In this document: positions 50,318-58,620 of the stretch, in pieces
Layout of the letters: every line of letters starts with the position of its first letter
Position numbering within the stretch: the first letter of the stretch is position 1
Origin: Kaustia mangrovi
GTDB lineage: Bacteria > Pseudomonadota > Alphaproteobacteria > Rhizobiales > Im1
NCBI RefSeq assembly: GCF_015482775.1
Contig: NZ_CP058214.1
Coordinates: 3,028,501-3,092,500, forward strand
Direction of reading: 5' to 3'
DNA: 64,000 bases
The notes under the pieces: model-generated
The model's input: the letters and a program-made list of their open reading frames with translations, nothing else
Databases searched by the model: none
Told to the model about the DNA's origin: nothing
Made by a program: the position numbers and the translations under genes

Positions 50318-50719
50318 ATGACGACCACAATCGCCGAACAGTTGAGTACCGTGTCGCTCTACGAGAGGCTGGGCGCGTCCGCCGGGATCCGGCGGATCGT
50401 CGACGGGATGGTCGATGCGCATCTGGAGAACCCGGTCATCCGGGCGCGCTTCCAGCCCTATCTGAACGATCCCGAGCGCGTCGAAGAAATCAAGCGGCAC
50501 ATCTGTGCGTTCTTCGAGATGCGTGCGGGCGGTCCCGGACCCTACCGGGGCCGATGCATGGTCGAGGCTCACCGGGGCATGAACATCGCCGAGGCGGAGT
50601 ACGTGGCCGCGGTCGACGACATCCTCGGCACCATGCGGGCGCTCGGACACCGCGAGGAGGAGAGGGCGGAGGTTCTCGCGATGCTCTACGGGCTCAAGGA
50701 CGAGATCATCCGGGTCTGA
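50318..50719 (+). CDS. Group I truncated haemoglobin
   Basis: A 133-residue globin with the short A helix and TVSLYERLGASAGIRRIVDGMVDAHLENPVIRARF start typical of trHbN. The proximal histidine is probably in MVEAHRGMNIAEAEY (about residue 88), and YxGRCM precedes it. Such proteins bind O2 or NO and can detoxify NO. The gene follows the tautomerase after 39 bases and precedes the cupin, in a unit divergent from an HxlR regulator. Confidence 0.87.
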   Translation: MTTTIAEQLSTVSLYERLGASAGIRRIVDGMVDAHLENPVIRARFQPYLNDPERVEEIKRHICAFFEMRAGGPGPYRGRCMVEAHRGMNIAEAEYVAAVDDILGTMRALGHREEERAEVLAMLYGLKDEIIRV

Positions 50720-50768
50720 GCGGCGCGGCCGCTGGGACTGCCAAATCGATATCCGAAAGGAGGCAAGT

Positions 50769-51137
50769 ATGACGGACGCTGCGATCGAGACACGGCGTTT
50801 CGAGAGCGCCGACGACAGGCTCGACATGAAGGAGAATGGCGGCATCGACATCGTCAGGATGAGGGACGGGACGACCGGCATGTACGCGGTGTTCGAGCCG
50901 GGCTGGACATGGGAGAAGGACGAAAAGCCGCTGCTCGGGTCGCCCGGCTCCTGCCCGATGCGCCACAAGGGTTACTGCATCGCCGGCAGGCTGGTCGTCC
51001 GCATGGTCGAGACGGGTGTCGAAACCCCGATCTCGGCTGGCGACTTCTTCGAGATCCCGCCTGGACACGACGCCTATGTGGATGGTCCCGACCGGGTCGA
51101 GATGGTCTTGTTCGAGGCTCCGCAGGAAGAGCAGTAG
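50769..51137 (+). CDS. Cupin domain protein
   Basis: A 122-residue single-cupin protein. The second cupin motif is visible as GDFFEIPPGHDAYVDGPDRVEMV, but the usual first motif with HxH is replaced by MRHKGYCIAGRLVVRM, leaving few obvious metal ligands. Length and hydrophobic pattern fit a small beta-barrel. The ATG follows AAGGAGGCAAGT. Function unknown; it closes the operon with the tautomerase and the truncated globin. Confidence 0.8.
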   Translation: MTDAAIETRRFESADDRLDMKENGGIDIVRMRDGTTGMYAVFEPGWTWEKDEKPLLGSPGSCPMRHKGYCIAGRLVVRMVETGVETPISAGDFFEIPPGHDAYVDGPDRVEMVLFEAPQEEQ

Positions 51138-51656
51138 GGACCGGGCCGGGTGGCGGGCGGCACGCAGAAGAGCCGCCAGGGCGGAGCGTTGAGCGGTCCG
51201 CCACCCCCCGATAGCGGCCCTGCGCAAAACCGGTATTCGCCGTGATCCACGCGGCGCGCCTTGTGTGCTTCACAGGGCCCCCAGCCTTTTCTACCAGTAT
51301 CCGCGCGCCGGCCGATGGCCAGGGACGGCCTCTGCGCCGTTATCCCGTCCTGGAACGCGCGGCTCTCCCTCCCGCCGTTCGGATGGCGGCTCTCCCGGAT
51401 TGCAGCGATATCGAGACCCTGATGGCGTTCGGATCCTGGCAAGGCCCGGGGGCTGCATTCCGAGCCATGCACAGCCGTTCAAGAAGCCCCGTTTTTCCCG
51501 GACTAGGTTGCCTCGTTGAAGTCCTTGGGGGCGTCCATGGATGATGAGCCGCAAACGGTCTGATGCAGACCTGGCTGCAAGGGGGGCAAGGCCTTCGGAT
51601 GCGGTCGTGCGGACGCATAGGCACGCCTGGTTCAACGATAAAAAGGGAAGGGCAAT
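51138..51656. other. Non-coding gap, 519 bases
   Basis: I see no gene with a good ribosome site, no repeat and no structured RNA here. Open frames in this stretch are short and have atypical codon use. A weak stem GGATTGCAGCGATATCG is not convincing. It may hold the leader and promoter of the NSS transporter gene, which starts with AAGGGAAGGG. Confidence 0.4.
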
Positions 51657-52991
51657 ATGGCATCGGAACGTGAACACTGGTCATCGAGACTTGGCTTTAT
51701 CCTCGCGGCGGCGGGCTCGGCCGTCGGGCTCGGGAATATCTGGCGCTTTCCCTATGTTACGGGGGAAAACGGCGGTGCCGCATTCCTGATCATCTATCTG
51801 TCGATCGTGTTCTCGATCGGCTTTTCGGTCGTCATCGCCGAACTGATCATCGGGCGCGCGACCCAGCTCAATCCCGTCGGAGCGTTCAAGAGACTGGCTG
51901 GCGGCGTGTGGCCCGTTGCGGGCTATGTCGGCATAGCGACCGCATTCGTGATCCTGTCCTTTTATTGCGTGATCGCGGGCTGGACGCTCGCCTACATGGT
52001 CAAGTCGATAACCGGCACCGTGCTGTCGAGCGACATCGACCAGGTGGGCGCCACGTTCAGCACCTTCATTTCGGATCCGTTCGAGCCGGTGATCTACACG
52101 GCAATCTTCGCCGCGCTCAGCGTCCTCGTTGTCCTGCGCGGCGTCACCCATGGCATTGAACGTGCGGCGCGCTACCTGATGCCCGCGCTCCTGGTGATTC
52201 TGCTCGTCCTGGTTGGCCGCTCCGTCACGCTGGAGGGAGCCTCGGCCGGAATCGCCTTCTTTCTGCAACCCGATTTCTCGAAGGTCACATGGGGGACGCT
52301 GTTTGCCGCACTGGGCCAGGCGTTCTTCTCCCTGTCGCTCGGCATGGGGGCGATGATCACATACGGGTCATATCTGCGTCCGCATGACGGTATATTCGGA
52401 TCGGCCCTGTGGGTGACCGTGATCGACACCTCGGTGGCCGTCCTCGCCGGCCTCGTTATCCTGCCGGCCGTGTTCGCATTCGGCGCCGAGCCGTCAGCGG
52501 GGCCCGGGCTGACCTTCATCACGCTGCCATCCATTTTCGCCCAAATGCCTTTGGGCGAGGTCTTTGCCATATTGTTCTTCTTTCTGCTCGTGATCGCGGC
52601 GTTGACGAGTGCCGTCTCGCTGCTCGAGGTCGTTGTGGCCTATTTCGTCGACGAGTTCTCGGCAAACCGGATCAATACCACCATGATCGTCGGTGCGTTC
52701 ACCTTCGTGGTCGCCGTGCCGTCGTCGCTCAGCCTGGGAGTATGGTCGGGCTATACGATCGCGGGAAAGGGCGTTCTCGATGCGCTCGATTTTCTGACCA
52801 ACAACATCACCATGCCGGTCGGCGGATTGTTGATTGCACTGTTCGTGGGGTGGGTGATCAAGCCCGAGATTGTGCGGGATCTGGTGGAGGACTCGAAGAT
52901 TCCGCCAATCGTGGTGGCCGCGTGGCGGATCGTGATCCGCTTCGTGGCGCCGGTCGCTATCGCGACGATTCTGGTCAATGGCCTGGTCTGA
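51657..52991 (+). CDS. Sodium-dependent NSS family transporter
   Basis: A 444-residue neurotransmitter:sodium symporter homologue with about 11-12 membrane spans. The N-terminus has the family signature SRLGFILAAAGSAVGLGNIWRFPYVTGENGGAAFLIIYL, whose unwound TM1 binds Na+ and substrate. The TM6 region reads FFSLSLGMGAMITYGSYL, as in LeuT/MhsT-type amino acid transporters. It likely imports an amino acid or amine together with Na+. Its neighbours are amino acid enzymes (aminotransferase, aldolase), consistent with that. Confidence 0.92.
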   Translation: MASEREHWSSRLGFILAAAGSAVGLGNIWRFPYVTGENGGAAFLIIYLSIVFSIGFSVVIAELIIGRATQLNPVGAFKRLAGGVWPVAGYVGIATAFVILSFYCVIAGWTLAYMVKSITGTVLSSDIDQVGATFSTFISDPFEPVIYTAIFAALSVLVVLRGVTHGIERAARYLMPALLVILLVLVGRSVTLEGASAGIAFFLQPDFSKVTWGTLFAALGQAFFSLSLGMGAMITYGSYLRPHDGIFGSALWVTVIDTSVAVLAGLVILPAVFAFGAEPSAGPGLTFITLPSIFAQMPLGEVFAILFFFLLVIAALTSAVSLLEVVVAYFVDEFSANRINTTMIVGAFTFVVAVPSSLSLGVWSGYTIAGKGVLDALDFLTNNITMPVGGLLIALFVGWVIKPEIVRDLVEDSKIPPIVVAAWRIVIRFVAPVAIATILVNGLV

Positions 52992-53202: not shown

Positions 53203-54072
53203 TCACATGGTCGCGGCGGTGGATCTGGCGAAATCCCAATAGAGCGACCGGGCCCGGGTCGTCACCGGGCCGGTGTCCAGTGCGCGGTCCTGATAGCGAT
53301 TGACGGGCATCACCTTGGCGATGTTGCCGGTCAGGAAAATCTCGTCGGCATTGTCGAAATCGGCGAGGGACATCGTCGTCTCGACCACCTCGACGCCATC
53401 GGCGCGAAGCAGCTTTATGACCCGCTGCCTGGTCAGTCCGTTCAGGAAGCAGCCATTGGGAACCGGCGTGAAGACGACACCGTCCGTGACGGCGAATGCG
53501 TTCATGCTGGCGGTCTCCGCGACGTTGCCATCCGCGTCCAGCGACAGCGCGTTGGAAAAGCCGCGCGCGCGTGCGTCGGTCAGGATCCGGCCGTTATTGG
53601 GATAGAGCGACCCCGTCTTGGCGCCGGTGACCGCCATGTCCTGGCGCGGCCGCCGATAGGGCGACACGGTCAGGGAATAGGCGCCGGTTTGCGGCATGGG
53701 CATGTCCTCGATGCAGATCGCGAAGCCGGTGGACTCCGGGTCGAGATCGAGCACGCCGGCGCCGCCATCGCACGACCACATCATCGGCCGGATGTAGAGC
53801 GTGGCATCGCGCGCGAAGCGGTCGAGCCCCTTGCGCACCTGCGCTTCGATCTCCTCGGCCGAGACGGGCGAGACCATGCCCATGACCTCGGCCGAGTGGA
53901 CCAGCCGCGCGCAATGGAGATCGAGATCGGGGGTCGTGCCTTCGAATTGCCGTGCCCCGTCGAAGATCTGGGTCCCGAGCCAGGCGGCATGGTCCGCCGC
54001 CCGCATGATCGGGACATTGCCATCGATCCAGCGCCCGTCGAAATAGGTTGCTATTGTCTTGCCAATGGCCAT
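53203..54072 (-). CDS. Class IV (BCAT-like) aminotransferase
   Basis: A 289-residue fold-type IV PLP enzyme. The N-terminal TYFDGRWIDGNVPIMRAADHAAWLGTQIFDGARQF and the PLP lysine in AVTGAKTGSLYPNNGRILTDARARGF (about residue 150) are family features, as is NVAETASMNAFAVTDG. It could be a branched-chain, D-amino acid or (R)-amine transaminase; the AKTGSLYPN variant differs from the GGNY form of IlvE, so housekeeping valine/leucine synthesis is unlikely. A copy of the 19-nt AraC-associated site lies 63-81 bases upstream of the start. Divergent from the AraC gene. Confidence 0.85.
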   Translation of the reverse strand: MAIGKTIATYFDGRWIDGNVPIMRAADHAAWLGTQIFDGARQFEGTTPDLDLHCARLVHSAEVMGMVSPVSAEEIEAQVRKGLDRFARDATLYIRPMMWSCDGGAGVLDLDPESTGFAICIEDMPMPQTGAYSLTVSPYRRPRQDMAVTGAKTGSLYPNNGRILTDARARGFSNALSLDADGNVAETASMNAFAVTDGVVFTPVPNGCFLNGLTRQRVIKLLRADGVEVVETTMSLADFDNADEIFLTGNIAKVMPVNRYQDRALDTGPVTTRARSLYWDFARSTAATM

Positions 54073-54134
54073 GCGAAGCTCCGCTCGTCTCTGTTCGTCG
54101 GTGTGCTTGCTGGATACGCGCCGGGACCTCCGGG

Positions 54135-54153
54135 GGTCTTGAACGATTGTGCG
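54135..54153 (-). promoter_or_regulatory. Candidate AraC-regulator site, copy 1
   Basis: GGTCTTGAACGATTGTGCG on the plus strand, i.e. CGCACAATCGTTCAAGACC reading toward the aminotransferase gene. The identical 19-mer recurs at 55274-55292 in the same orientation with respect to its own downstream gene. A possible -10 (TATCCA) lies 18 bases after the site. Confidence 0.7.
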
Positions 54154-54408
54154 CCATGTCCGGCGCGCGGCGGCCGGTGTGCATCGCTCTGCGGCGGTCG
54201 TGCCGGCAGACGCGACGCTTCAAACCGAATGAACATTGCACTATCCTTTCCCGCAGAAGCCTTGGCGTTCCCTGGAACAGGGGAGCGGGCATTGCGGAAA
54301 CACGGCCACTTCCGTCCCGACGACATCGACGATTGCCGTTTGCGGGGGGCTGCTTGATGCCTCGATGCATTCGCTGGAGATGATTGGAACAACCGGAACC
54401 GCGATGAG

Positions 54409-55236
54409 ATGCGCGCAGAATTCGACAGGCATCCCGGCGACAGGGTCCACACGCTCGATGACGGCAAGGCCGGTATCCGGCGGATGGAGGTGTTTCTCCA
54501 TGGCGCGCCCTACTCGCTGCACCGCCATGACAGCTATGCGATCGGGGTGACGCTTGCCGGGCTTCAGTGCTTTTCCTATCGGGGGCGCCGGCACAGGGCC
54601 CGGCCCGGGCAGATCCACGTCCTTTTTCCCGACGAGCTGCACGACGGCGCGGCGGGAACCGAAACGGGCTTCGGCTATCGCATTGCCTATATCGATCCCG
54701 GTTTCCTGCAGCAGGCGCTGGGCGGGCGCGCATTGCCGTTCGTCCGCAACCCGGTGCTGACGGCGAATGCGGCCTGGGCCTCCATGCTTGACAAGCTTTG
54801 GGACCCGGAGCTTTGCAGCGACGAGGTCATGCGGACGGAATTTGCGGTCGAGGCGACAGACTGCCTCGAAGCCGCCGCCGGAAGCCGGTCGCCGGACCGC
54901 CCCGGTACCATTGCATTCGACCGCCTGCTTGAGGTGCGCGAGGCCATCGCGCAGGATCCGGTCCGGCGTCTCGACATGGCCGAACTCGAACGCCTTGCCG
55001 ACATGGACCGTTGGAGCCTGGCGCGCGGCTTTCGCGCGGCATTCGGGACCAGCCCGAGCCGGTTCCGCATGATGCGGCAACTGGAACATGCGCGCGATCG
55101 CCTCGAGGCCGGCATGCCCCTGGCCGAGGCCGCGCTGGATGCCGGCTTTGCCGATCAAAGCCACATGACCAGACGGTTCCGCGACGCCTTCGGCATGTCG
55201 CCGCGCCAGTGGAGGCTGGCCAGCCGGACCGCCTGA
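54409..55236 (+). CDS. AraC family transcriptional regulator
   Basis: A 275-residue regulator with an N-terminal AraC-type cupin (HGAPYSLHRHDSYAIGVTLAGLQCFSYRGRRHRARPGQIHVLFPDELHDG, residues 30-80) and a C-terminal double helix-turn-helix, residues 190-275, whose second part FADQSHMTRRFRDAFGMSPRQWR is the family signature. The ATG has only a weak ribosome site. It stands between a divergent aminotransferase gene and a co-directional FAH-hydrolase operon, each preceded by the same 19-nt sequence, so it probably activates both. Confidence 0.9.
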   Translation: MRAEFDRHPGDRVHTLDDGKAGIRRMEVFLHGAPYSLHRHDSYAIGVTLAGLQCFSYRGRRHRARPGQIHVLFPDELHDGAAGTETGFGYRIAYIDPGFLQQALGGRALPFVRNPVLTANAAWASMLDKLWDPELCSDEVMRTEFAVEATDCLEAAAGSRSPDRPGTIAFDRLLEVREAIAQDPVRRLDMAELERLADMDRWSLARGFRAAFGTSPSRFRMMRQLEHARDRLEAGMPLAEAALDAGFADQSHMTRRFRDAFGMSPRQWRLASRTA

Positions 55237-55273
55237 TCCCGGCGGGGCCGCGCCTCCCCCCAGAGACTCTTCA

Positions 55274-55292
55274 CGCACAATCGTTCAAGACC
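55274..55292 (+). promoter_or_regulatory. Candidate AraC-regulator site, copy 2
   Basis: CGCACAATCGTTCAAGACC, identical to the sequence at 54135-54153, lies 79-97 bases upstream of the FAH-family gene. A possible -10 (TAGCCT) follows 17 bases later, so the site end overlaps the -35 position, the common arrangement for AraC-type activators. Confidence 0.7.
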
Positions 55293-55370
55293 GTCTGCAA
55301 CGCCTTTCCTAGCCTTCGCGATCATTGCCGGATCGTCCGGCACAACCGATGTCGAAGGAAGGCTGAAGAC

Positions 55371-56183
55371 ATGGCGTCACAGACCGAAATCCAGAAATAT
55401 GTCCGGTTCGAAACCGGCGGCCGCACCGCCTATGGCCGTTGGAAGGATGGCGTGATCGAGGAGCTCGAAGGCTCGATCTACGAGGGTGCCGCTCCTACGG
55501 GCGCGACCTTCCGCTTGGAGGATGTGCATCTGCTGGTTCCCTGCGAGCCGTCCAAGGTCATCGCGGTCGGCCTGAACTATGCCAGCCACCAACAATTCGT
55601 GACGTCGGCGGAAGGCGGCTTCACCGCTCCGGGCGGCAAGCCGCTCGACATGTCCAAACCGGTGATTTTCGCGAAGTTTCCCACCAGCCTGATCCCCGAC
55701 GGCGCGGATATCGTCTTTCCGGACGGCGCGACCAATGTCCATTTCGAGGGTGAGCTGGCGCTTGTGATCGGAAAGAAGGCGAGCCGTGTCGGCGAAGCCG
55801 AGGCCAGGGACTACGTCTTCGGCGTTTCCATCTGCAACGATCTCGTCGACCGCGAATGGCTGTTGAACGACCTGCAATGGTTCCGTGCCAAGGGGTCCGA
55901 CAATTTCGGTCCGATGGGGCCGGCCATCGTCACGGGGCTCGACTATTCCGATCTGCGTCTGCGCACGTGGGTCAATGGCGATCTGCGCCAGGATTCGTCC
56001 ACCAGCGAACTGGTCTATTCGCCCGACAAGCTGCTCAGCTATGTCTCGCAGTTCGTGACACTGATGCCCGGCGACGTGATTTTCACCGGAACGCCGGGCC
56101 AGACGCAGGCGGTAACCCAGGGCGATACGATCGAAATCGAGATCGAGGGCGTTGGCCGCCTCTGCAATTCGATTGCCGCATGA
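55371..56183 (+). CDS. Fumarylacetoacetate hydrolase-family protein
   Basis: A 270-residue enzyme. The catalytic domain begins KVIAVGLNYASHQQF and includes the metal-binding acidic residues of ATNVHFEGELALVIGKKA (E-x-E) with the later aspartate in FGVSICNDLVDRE; the C-terminus has FTGTPGQTQAVTQGD. FAH-fold members hydrolyse or decarboxylate beta-dicarbonyls or hydrate dienoates at the end of aromatic and sugar-acid catabolism. The ATG follows GAAGGAAGGC. It is followed 34 bases later by the YbaK gene. Confidence 0.9.
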   Translation: MASQTEIQKYVRFETGGRTAYGRWKDGVIEELEGSIYEGAAPTGATFRLEDVHLLVPCEPSKVIAVGLNYASHQQFVTSAEGGFTAPGGKPLDMSKPVIFAKFPTSLIPDGADIVFPDGATNVHFEGELALVIGKKASRVGEAEARDYVFGVSICNDLVDREWLLNDLQWFRAKGSDNFGPMGPAIVTGLDYSDLRLRTWVNGDLRQDSSTSELVYSPDKLLSYVSQFVTLMPGDVIFTGTPGQTQAVTQGDTIEIEIEGVGRLCNSIAA

Positions 56184-56217: not shown

Positions 56218-56679
56218 GTGACACCCGAAGCAGTGCGGAAATATCTGGCCGAGCACGCGCCGGACCTTGAGCTCGTCGAACTGCCCGAAGCGCATACGAC
56301 CGACTACATCTCGCGCGAATGGAAGGTTCTGCCTGCCCAGGTCGCCAAGACGCTGACGCTGCGGGTCGGCGGCGATGCGAAGATTGTCGTGACCTGCGGC
56401 GACTCGCGGCTCGACAACCGCAAGGTCAAGGATGTGCTCGGCGGCAAGGGCCGGATGATGCCGGGGCCGGAGGCCTCCGAGATCACCGGTCATCCGGTGG
56501 GCGGCATCACTCCGCTTTGCCTCGCCAGGCCTTTGCCGGTGTTTTTCGACGTTCAGCTGAAACGCTTCGACGAGGTGGTGACGGCAGCGTGCTCGACCCA
56601 TGCGGCCATCCGCATCCCGCCCGAACGCTTTGCCGAGCTTGTCGACGCCACCTGGGTGGATATCTGCAGCGATCCATGA
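56218..56679 (+). CDS. YbaK/EbsC family aminoacyl-tRNA deacylase-like protein
   Basis: A 153-residue single-domain protein with YbaK-fold features: AHTTDYISREWKVLPAQVAKTLTLRVGGDAKIVVTCGDSRLDNRKVKDVLG (lysine K45-region for catalysis) and EITGHPVGGITPLCLARPLPVFFD, the GxxxGG.xP motif. Such proteins deacylate mischarged tRNAs, often for Cys, Ala or Pro. Start is a GTG with ACAGGAGG at proper spacing. Operonic with the FAH-family gene, which is unusual and may mean a metabolic rather than a translation role. Confidence 0.88.
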   Translation: MTPEAVRKYLAEHAPDLELVELPEAHTTDYISREWKVLPAQVAKTLTLRVGGDAKIVVTCGDSRLDNRKVKDVLGGKGRMMPGPEASEITGHPVGGITPLCLARPLPVFFDVQLKRFDEVVTAACSTHAAIRIPPERFAELVDATWVDICSDP

Positions 56680-56782
56680 CGCCTTGCGAGGCGTGCGGCA
56701 GGCAGCGCCGCGAGGCAGGAGGCGCGGCGGTCCGCAAGCGATGGCGTCGGTTATGGCGTGACCTTCGAGCGTCCGTCCGCCG

Positions 56783-58044
56783 TCAGCGTCCGCAGGCCAT
56801 CGCGCGCTGAAGAAGGAAGGCCTTCTCTCGTGCGTTGCGCGTGAGGGCCGCGGCGCGCTCGAACGCGTCTCTGGCTTCGGCGAGCCGGCCGGCCCGGAAG
56901 AGGAAGTCCCCCTCGCGGCGGGAAGCGGCGCATAGCCGTCAAGCGCCGGGGCCCGTTCGATCTCGCCGAGCAGCGCCAGGCCGGCCTCCGGGCCGAAGGC
57001 CATGCTGTGGGCCACGGCCCGGTTGAGATCGACCACCGGCGAGGGCATGACCTCGCGCAGCGTGTCGTAGAGCGCCGCGATCCTCCTCCAGTCGGTGTCT
57101 TCCGCCGTGCGGGCCCTGGCATGGCAGGCGGCGAGCGCGGCCTGGAGGGTATAGGGTCCGGCGGCGCCGCCCAGCGCCTCGGCACGGTCGAGGGCGGCGA
57201 GGCCCCTGCCGATCAGCAACCGGTCCCAGTGGGCGCGGTTCTGTTCGGTCAGCGGGACGAGCGCGCCGTCCGGGCCCGTGCGCGCGGCAAGGCGCGACGC
57301 CTGGATCTCCATGAGCGAGAGAAGGCCGAAGACTTCCGGCTCGTCGGGGAGCGCGGCGGCCAGGATGCGGCCCAGGCGTTGGGCTTCCGCGCACAGGGCG
57401 GGCCGGATCAGGTCCTCGCCGGCGGTCGCCGCATAGCCCTCGTTGAAGATCAGATAGATCACCTCCAGCACGGAGGCGAGACGCTCCCTGCGATCCTCGC
57501 CGCGCGGCACCGCGAAGGTCAGGCCGGCAGTGCGGAGCGTCTTCTTGGCCCGGACGATGCGCTGCGCGATGGTCGCCTCCTTCGACAGGAAGGCGCGGGC
57601 GATCTCGTCCGTGGTCAGCCCGCCGATCAGGCGCAGCGTGATCGCCGCGCGGGCCTCCGGCGACACGATCGGGTGGCAGGCGGCGAAGATCAGGCCCAGG
57701 AGCTCGTCGCCGAGGTCGTCGTCGAGCGCCGTCTCGATGGCGTCGGCGGTCTCGCCGGTCCGCTCCTCGAGGTCGCGGCCGAGCTCGGCATGCTTGCGCG
57801 CGAGCATCCGGTCGCGGCGGAAGCCGTCGATGGCCCGGCGCCTGGCCGTGGCCATCAGCCAGGCGCCGGGATTGTCCGGGATACCGGTTTTCGGCCAGGC
57901 GTCGAGCGCCGTCACCAGCGCGTCCTGCGCCAGCTCCTCCGCCTGGTCGATGTCGCGCACCAGCCGGGCGAGCCCCGCAACGAGCCTTGCCCGCTCGATC
58001 CGGAAGACCGTCTCGATTGCCTTGTGCGTCTCGCTCGCCGCCAT
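56783..58044 (-). pseudogene. ECF-like sigma factor (SigJ/DUF6596 type) with C-terminal frameshift
   Basis: Residues 1-375 are an intact sigma factor: region 2 VRDIDQAEELAQDALVTALDAWP..PGAWLMATARRRAIDGFRR, region 4 LRLIGGLTTDEIARAFLSKEATIAQRIVRAKKTLR, then the TPR-like C-domain. After ALDGYAPLPAA, near 56920-56926, homology moves to another frame: EGDFLFRAGRLAEARDAFERAAAL continues to a stop at 56783-56785. One missing base restores a 420-residue protein of normal family length. As given, the first frame runs on as nonfamily sequence into the YbaK gene. It may be a sequencing error, a phase-variable site or true decay; the sigma domains are intact either way. It pairs with the YCII gene downstream in coordinates. 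Confidence 0.75.
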
Positions 58045-58058
58045 GGGCCCGGATTATA

Positions 58059-58103
58059 GCGCTTTCAGGAAAAGTGGAGACCACTTTTCCGGTTCGAAAG
58101 CGC
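58059..58103. repeat. Double-stem palindromic repeat
   Basis: Outer arms GCGCTTTC/GAAAGCGC (58059-58066 with 58096-58103) enclose inner arms GGAAAAGTGG/CCACTTTTCC (58068-58077 with 58081-58090). It lies just upstream of the sigma-factor start. Its GGAAAAGTGGAGACC core is related to part of the cluster at 32166-32189. Similar elements are abundant in Rhizobiales genomes. Confidence 0.75.
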
Positions 58104-58197
58104 GGCATTTCAGGGGCCGTGCCCATTGCGGGGCAAGCCGCGGCCGGCTTGCCGGGGGCGCTGGAGCGGGCCCGCCGGGCGCGAGGCCCGCATGGGC

Positions 58198-58620
58198 TCA
58201 CCTGTTCTTGGTCTTGTCTTGGACCCGGCCGTGGATCGCCTCGGCGTCCGGCGTCATGATCTCCTCGAAGTCGGAGAGCTCGTACACCGGGCGGATCTCG
58301 ATCTCGCTCGGGCCCGGCATCGGATTGGGGCAGCGCTTGACCCACTCCACGGCCTCCGCCATGTCCTTCACCTCCCACAGCCAGTAGCCGGCGACCAGCT
58401 CGCGGGTCTCCGCGAACGGCCCGTCGATGACGGCACGCCCGGGCCCGTCGAAGGCCACGCGCTTGCCTTGCGAGGACGGCTTCAGACCGTCGCCGGCCAG
58501 CATGATGCCGGCATTCACCAGCTCCTCGTTGTACTTGCCCATCTCCTCCAGCAGCGCCGACGATGGCATGATGCCTTCTTCGGAGTCTTTCGTCGCCTTC
58601 ACGAAAACCATGACACGCAT
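58198..58620 (-). CDS. YCII-domain (YciI/DGPF) protein
   Basis: A 140-residue protein: MRVMVFVKATKDSEEG start, GDGLKPSSQGKRVAFDGPGRAVIDGPFAETRELVAGYWLWEVKDMAEAVEWVKRCP, with the DGPF motif of this branch. These ferredoxin-like-fold proteins are very often encoded next to ECF sigma factors of the type found directly downstream here, and probably act with them, though the mechanism is not established. A single C-terminal basic tail (KTKNR) ends it. The two genes are 153 bases apart with a palindrome between. Confidence 0.9.
   Translation of the reverse strand: MRVMVFVKATKDSEEGIMPSSALLEEMGKYNEELVNAGIMLAGDGLKPSSQGKRVAFDGPGRAVIDGPFAETRELVAGYWLWEVKDMAEAVEWVKRCPNPMPGPSEIEIRPVYELSDFEEIMTPDAEAIHGRVQDKTKNR

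Follow-up and report, generated by a model that had tools for sequence, protein, structure and literature searches.

Closest described systems

AraC-family activators are common, and the target site and signal of most of them are unknown. The closest described counterparts of the locus presented here are the class II activators of the AraC/XylS family (MarA/SoxS, RhaS, and XylS types). Two direct-repeat sites are typical of AraC, RhaS, and XylS and are not required of the MarA/SoxS types, and sites of the MarA type serve as basis of comparison for a single two-part site with a GCAC left box. AraC-family proteins with a single site at −35 are mostly activators. Like these systems, the regulator described below carries an HTH_18 domain and is accompanied by a site that lies over −35 at a preferred distance from the −10 box and consists of two parts one helical turn apart, with GCAC as left box; it differs in having one site per promoter without a visible second direct repeat.

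E. coli YbaK and T. thermophilus TTHA1699, trans-editing deacylases of the YbaK/ProX type, are sequence-related to another protein of the locus, which shares the tRNA_edit domain and the conserved lysine in an AKT(L) segment. However, this protein scores far under the cut-off of the YbaK/EbsC equivalog (TIGR00011; 52.8 vs. 153.25 bits) and is recognized by the general tRNA_edit domain model, which cautions against ascribing Cys-tRNA(Pro) specificity to it. A more remote counterpart is araC1-lysE, named as a gene pair on Acinetobacter blaOXA-58 plasmids (e. g., PMC3882262, PMC5790767). Here, a 40.5 % identical AraC relative lies next to a LysE-family transporter gene, which makes the pair a distant relative of our arrangement, with a different target gene and without a site above threshold (best match with 6 mismatches). 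No characterized member of the AraC clade in question was found in the searchable literature, and searches for the motif with AraC, for DUF2000 with LysE, and for YbaK with AraC or LysE returned nothing relevant; in the open-access literature (subscription papers lay outside the search), no published description of a motif of the CGCACAATCGTTCAAGACC or YGCACRATCGTTCAAGAC type was found. NimR (E. coli YeaM) was considered as a possible published case of this box in a related regulator; as the open paper gives its target and no box sequence, this link is not claimed.

In the window (the whole 64-kb stretch of DNA that was analyzed), we infer with a probability of roughly 0.85 that the 19-mer CGCACAATCGTTCAAGACC is the operator of the AraC protein encoded at 54409–55236, which would act as an activator. 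AraC-family activation is a known kind of regulation, of which this locus is a well-delimited new case.

A 19-mer on either side of an AraC gene

The features of the locus are given below with their positions in the window; "operator" denotes a predicted site.

51468–51486, plus strand: operator 3, TGCACAGCCGTTCAAGAAG, weaker (18.8 bits), upstream of the SNF-family transporter gene
51504–51509, plus strand: −10-like box TAGGTT, starting 36 bp past the start of operator 3
51657–52991, plus strand: SNF-family sodium-dependent transporter (recognized by NF037979), probable third target
53203–54072, minus strand: class IV aminotransferase (PRK13356/NF009896, above cut-off)
54111–54116, minus strand: −10-like box TATCCA, starting 37 bp past the start of operator 1
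54135–54153, minus strand: operator 1, CGCACAATCGTTCAAGACC, exact copy, 33.3 bits under the matrix, facing the aminotransferase gene
54409–55236, plus strand: AraC-family regulator of 275 aa with AraC_binding cupin and HTH_18 (Pfam), proposed binder and activator
55274–55292, plus strand: operator 2, CGCACAATCGTTCAAGACC, exact copy, 34.2 bits, facing the FAH-YbaK operon
55310–55315, plus strand: −10-like box TAGCCT, starting 36 bp past the start of operator 2, a family-like spacing
55371–56183, plus strand: FAH-family enzyme with Rv2993c-like N-terminus (family profiles)
56218–56679, plus strand: YbaK/ProX-type aminoacyl-tRNA editing domain protein with GTG start (family profiles)

An earlier note on this DNA had reported the exact 19-mer at 54135–54153 and 55274–55292, and both copies were verified. 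They lie about 1.1 kb apart on opposite strands, i. e., mutually inverted on the chromosome, and share one orientation relative to the aminotransferase and FAH genes, as had been claimed. The distances to the start codons are 62 (aminotransferase) and 78 bases (FAH), each one less than the 63 and 79 given before, while the weak −10 boxes were indeed placed correctly at 17–18 bases downstream (TATCCA, a poor −10 box, 18 and TAGCCT 17 bases after the sites). A whole-genome scan with patterns and mismatches, the check that the note had proposed, found just two exact copies in 4,630,536 bases, one facing each neighbor of the AraC gene, rather than many unrelated ones. Within the 64-kb window, no further copy with up to 3 mismatches was found, and shuffled window sequence contained on average 0.01 such copies, which bears out that the match is improbable by chance. 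Comparison of the sequences flanking the two copies revealed no match, which argues for the identity of a binding site and excludes a duplicated segment.

The AraC protein is recognized by the HTH_18 and HTH_AraC models (77.6 bits vs. a cut-off of 33.6 and 47.2 vs. 26.6, respectively) and, in its N-terminal part, by the AraC-like cupin model PF02311 (66.8 vs. 21.1 bits). For the aminotransferase, PRK13356 (NF009896) gave 414.9 bits against a cut-off of 262; its nearest solved relatives, 4jxu and 4tvi, are labeled merely as putative aminotransferases. The FAH enzyme stays below the equivalog-domain cut-off of HpaG/4-hydroxyphenylacetate isomerase-decarboxylase (185.5 vs. 276.4 bits), and no family model names its reaction, with every equivalog score under its cut-off and assignment limited to the FAH family. 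Further downstream (56751–58620), a sigma-factor-like ORF (start near 58044, minus strand) lies by a small DGPF/YCII-like ORF (58198–58620, minus strand). Judged by eye, this pair resembles an ECF42 arrangement, and the sigma-like ORF seems frame-broken in its 3' part near 56900.

A third operator is predicted by the matrix described below. Among the near-matches listed by a genome scan allowing 3 mismatches, it is, besides operators 1 and 2, the only one with a correctly spaced TANNNT. The others lie in or across coding sequence (e. g., a hemN-like ORF, L179/L201) or lack a −10 box, and in both genomes scanned, the near-matches listed elsewhere have no TANNNT at the right spacing. In simulation, about 1.7 scores like that of operator 3 (18.8 bits) are expected per genome by chance, and it was accepted because it lies close to operator 1 (2.7 kb), is intergenic and correctly oriented, and precedes a correctly spaced −10 box. 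The SNF-family transporter gene at 51657–52991, which had not been linked to the repeat before, is thus probably the third target. Relatives of this transporter in other genomes carry no site, so that, of the genomes seen, this one alone has operator 3. A truncated-haemoglobin gene upstream of the transporter gene precedes a small ORF that weakly matches a cupin domain (50318–51137).

Conservation among the closest relatives

The AraC proteins of the window, of a genome from the same family (G003), of Pararhizobium, and of Flavimaribacter form one group with top support in the tree, which sits inside a set partnered by LysE exporters and hydroxyisobutyrate-dehydrogenase-like enzymes. In G003, the aminotransferase-AraC-FAH-YbaK order is kept (identities of 82, 79, 89, and 85 %, respectively). 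Its FAH-side site is degenerate and conserved in position (CGCACAACCATTCAAGATT, 22.1 bits, with TAGGGT at offset 37); upstream of its aminotransferase gene, no site was found (best match 1.5 bits), G003 being the only close relative that has this gene. In Pararhizobium and Flavimaribacter (AraC 71–72 % identical), the YbaK gene is the only one of these partners downstream of AraC, and the sites between the two genes are weak (14.5 and 14.1 bits). A YbaK-like gene is hence present at the AraC locus in 4/4 of the closest orthologues, which identifies it as the steady partner, while the aminotransferase and FAH genes are missing in 2/4 and were seen at the AraC locus only in the window's family. 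FAH relatives from other orders (49–51 % identity) have no site nearby. Elsewhere in the same AraC clade, locus L103 contains a YbaK-type gene with a site directly upstream, and L129, L134, and L137 contain a more distant YbaK-type gene beside a DUF2000 target. The conservation beside AraC orthologues that the earlier note had made its test is therefore split, holding for the FAH-side site and failing for the aminotransferase side in the one comparable close relative.

These data also bear on the interpretation proposed in that note, a regulon for an amino acid or amine catabolic route. Such a route, dedicated to one standard amino acid or amine, with the aminotransferase and the FAH enzyme catalyzing consecutive steps, would account for the site that both genes and probably the SNF transporter gene have in common, and for retention of the four-gene block in G003. 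However, G003 has no counterpart of the site at the aminotransferase gene, the AraC gene of Pararhizobium and Flavimaribacter stays with YbaK only, the tRNA-editing protein would have no obvious role, and the FAH reaction goes unnamed by the family models. We consider this route doubtful and as one option only, whereas the core idea, one AraC operator shared between promoters, has good support. In outline, the candidate regulon is real. That the repeat is a regulatory site, with the AraC protein as best candidate for its binder, is supported by a motif that tracks the AraC clade across phyla, faces the neighboring gene, and keeps a preferred −10 spacing (see below); the catabolic assignment is the part that is not supported. 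Against the operator-activator reading itself weigh the degenerate FAH-side site and absent aminotransferase-side site in G003 despite a 79 % identical AraC, the weak sites of about 14 bits in the 71–72 % identical orthologues, the poor −10 box at operator 1, and the siteless members of the clade.

Promoter geometry

Throughout the collection, the sites face the neighbor of the AraC gene, whether this is divergent or downstream. A TANNNT box occurs at an offset of 36 or 37 bp from the site start in 64/112 distinct sites, and at every other offset between 20 and 60 in at most 4 of the 112. With this spacing, the −35 position coincides with the operator's right half, the layout expected of a class II activator of the AraC family, for which an operator that overlaps −35 at constant distance to −10 is characteristic; both features are present here. 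The best-offset match to TTGACA averages only 2.8/6, the bases there being supplied by the operator itself. The site consists of GCAC and, about one helical turn on, CGTTCAAGAC. Up to 80 bp upstream of the sites, no second matrix peak was found, which does not match the dimer layout of two direct repeats and fits one site per promoter in a MarA-like layout.

Mechanistically, one AraC subunit would probably contact GCAC and CGTTCAAGAC via its two helix-turn-helix motifs, with the operator replacing the missing −35 element. Once bound to its ligand, the protein would recruit RNA polymerase to the −10 box that starts 36–37 bp after the site start (class II activation), and would do so at the aminotransferase gene, the FAH-YbaK operon, and probably the SNF transporter gene. 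As the site covers the −35 position, it would be workable for a repressor too, with the AraC protein blocking polymerase there until released by its ligand. This alternative is improbable given that promoters without a good −35 hexamer should need an activator and that single −35 sites in the AraC family mostly belong to activators. We therefore retain the operator-activator reading, for which site identity, orientation, conservation with the AraC clade, −10 spacing, and the lack of a good −35 box are established at the level of sequence.

The motif across the AraC clade

A total of 136 AraC loci was collected (80 from named bacterial genomes, the others from the window's order, with 4 plasmid loci), and a position matrix was built from 86 sites that accompany AraC genes other than the window's, with the window left out. 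Its consensus reads C/T-G-C-A-C-A/G-A-T-C-G-T-T-C-A-A-G-A-C, with CA, CGTTCAAG, and A being near-invariant. Under this matrix, the window operators score 34.2 bits (FAH side) and 33.3 bits (aminotransferase side), while 40 Mb of simulated sequence contained no match of at least 30 bits. The 136 loci yielded 110 matches of at least 22 bits compared to 0 with the reversed matrix. Because the matrix was partly derived from the loci it describes, 26 loci fetched later and kept out of matrix building were used as a check, which answers this concern only partly; the site is present in 24 of them. Within the clade to which the AraC protein of the window belongs, a near-exact site of the YGCACRATCGTTCAAGAC type (at least 14 bits) was found in 112/118 loci, the exceptions without a site above threshold being L035, L043, L079, L111, L125, and L186. 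The hosts comprise Alpha-, Beta-, and Gammaproteobacteria, Actinomycetota, Chloroflexota, and Dormibacterota, and the motif word beside AraC relatives spans at least 4 phyla, usually by genes for amino-acid export or handling.

In a sister clade, sites such as TGCAATTTCGTTCAAGAC retain the right part CGTTCAAGA and differ in the left part; correspondingly, the C-terminal recognition helix (FADQSHMTRxF) is retained and the N-terminal helix differs. This covariation of helix and box is what would be expected if each of the two HTH motifs contacts one box, and it favors the AraC protein as the molecule that binds. That another, more global regulator reads the 19-mer next to an incidental AraC gene is very improbable, given that in this genome the site hardly occurs outside the AraC neighborhood and that it tracks AraC relatives across phyla. 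Least of all do we credit a dispersed repeat, recombination scar, or chance match, which the two identical inverted copies might evoke and which is contradicted by the unlike flanks, the lack of further genomic copies, the chance expectation of 0.01 in the window, and the comparative conservation with preferred −10 spacing.

The window's genome also encodes a member of the sister clade, an AraC paralogue with 30 % identity (G000:C1 768918–769717; L030, L182; 768980), beside which a variant site, AGCAATTTCGTTCAAGATC (15.5 bits), faces the adjacent AzlC-family gene. A related word, TCAGTTTCGTTCAAGAC (14.9 bits), occurs close to the 3' end of another AraC-type ORF (L180 624–2363, about G000:C1 1903024–1904763) and faces an ORF that resembles a VOC/glyoxalase protein. 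The right box CGTTCAAGAC may be common to several AraC groups.

As targets read from the sites, the small cupin (37 cases), LysE (24), and hydroxyisobutyrate-dehydrogenase-like proteins (8) are joined by DUF2000, a family of unknown function to which the site points in 33 loci of this AraC clade. AzlC and YbaK (3 each), FAH-YbaK, a second LysE type, and RidA (2 each) as well as EamA, MFS, and tautomerase (one case each) complete the list. The partners elsewhere are mostly non-catabolic, namely LysE exporters, cupins, and DUF2000. Four Chloroflexota loci (L044, L050, L051, and L082) have two sites, before LysE and before RidA, cupin, or tautomerase, and the two-promoter arrangement thus exists beyond the window locus. 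On the tree, the 16 partner labels require at least 33 changes compared to 84 with shuffled labels, which indicates that partners are inherited yet also swapped while the operator stays.

The signal and what it would mean

The regulator probably responds to an amino acid or to a compound derived from one. As the class of the ligand itself we tentatively propose amino acids, and among them probably those outside the proteinogenic set, at somewhat less than even odds. This proposal draws on the clade's partners, which include LysE, AzlC (sister group), tRNA-editing proteins, aminotransferase, RidA, and the SNF transporter; that the constant partner is a tRNA-editing protein points to a non-proteinogenic amino acid with which tRNAs can be mischarged. 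We read the locus as a local activator system that would respond to an amino acid, probably a non-standard one, and serve its uptake, its transamination, and its proofreading on tRNA, with ligand and pathway judged from the gene content. In its broadest form, a single regulator would sense a non-proteinogenic amino acid, and one operator word would drive uptake (SNF), breakdown (aminotransferase, FAH), and tRNA editing, while across phyla the operator and the clade would re-wire protective partners (LysE, RidA, cupin, and DUF2000; AzlC in the sister group). We regard this scenario as conceivable and, taken as a whole, rather unlikely. If true, the motif would provide a genome-wide handle on genes for the handling of toxic amino acids.

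For the locus itself, the analysis turns a loose neighborhood into a defined regulon of three promoters, the third being probable. Beyond it, YGCACRATCGTTCAAGAC with a spaced −10 box can be read across several phyla, so that the targets of an uncharacterized AraC clade can be listed by sequence, and the motif links DUF2000, the small cupin, and YbaK-like proteins of the stand-alone type with a single, testable sort of signal.
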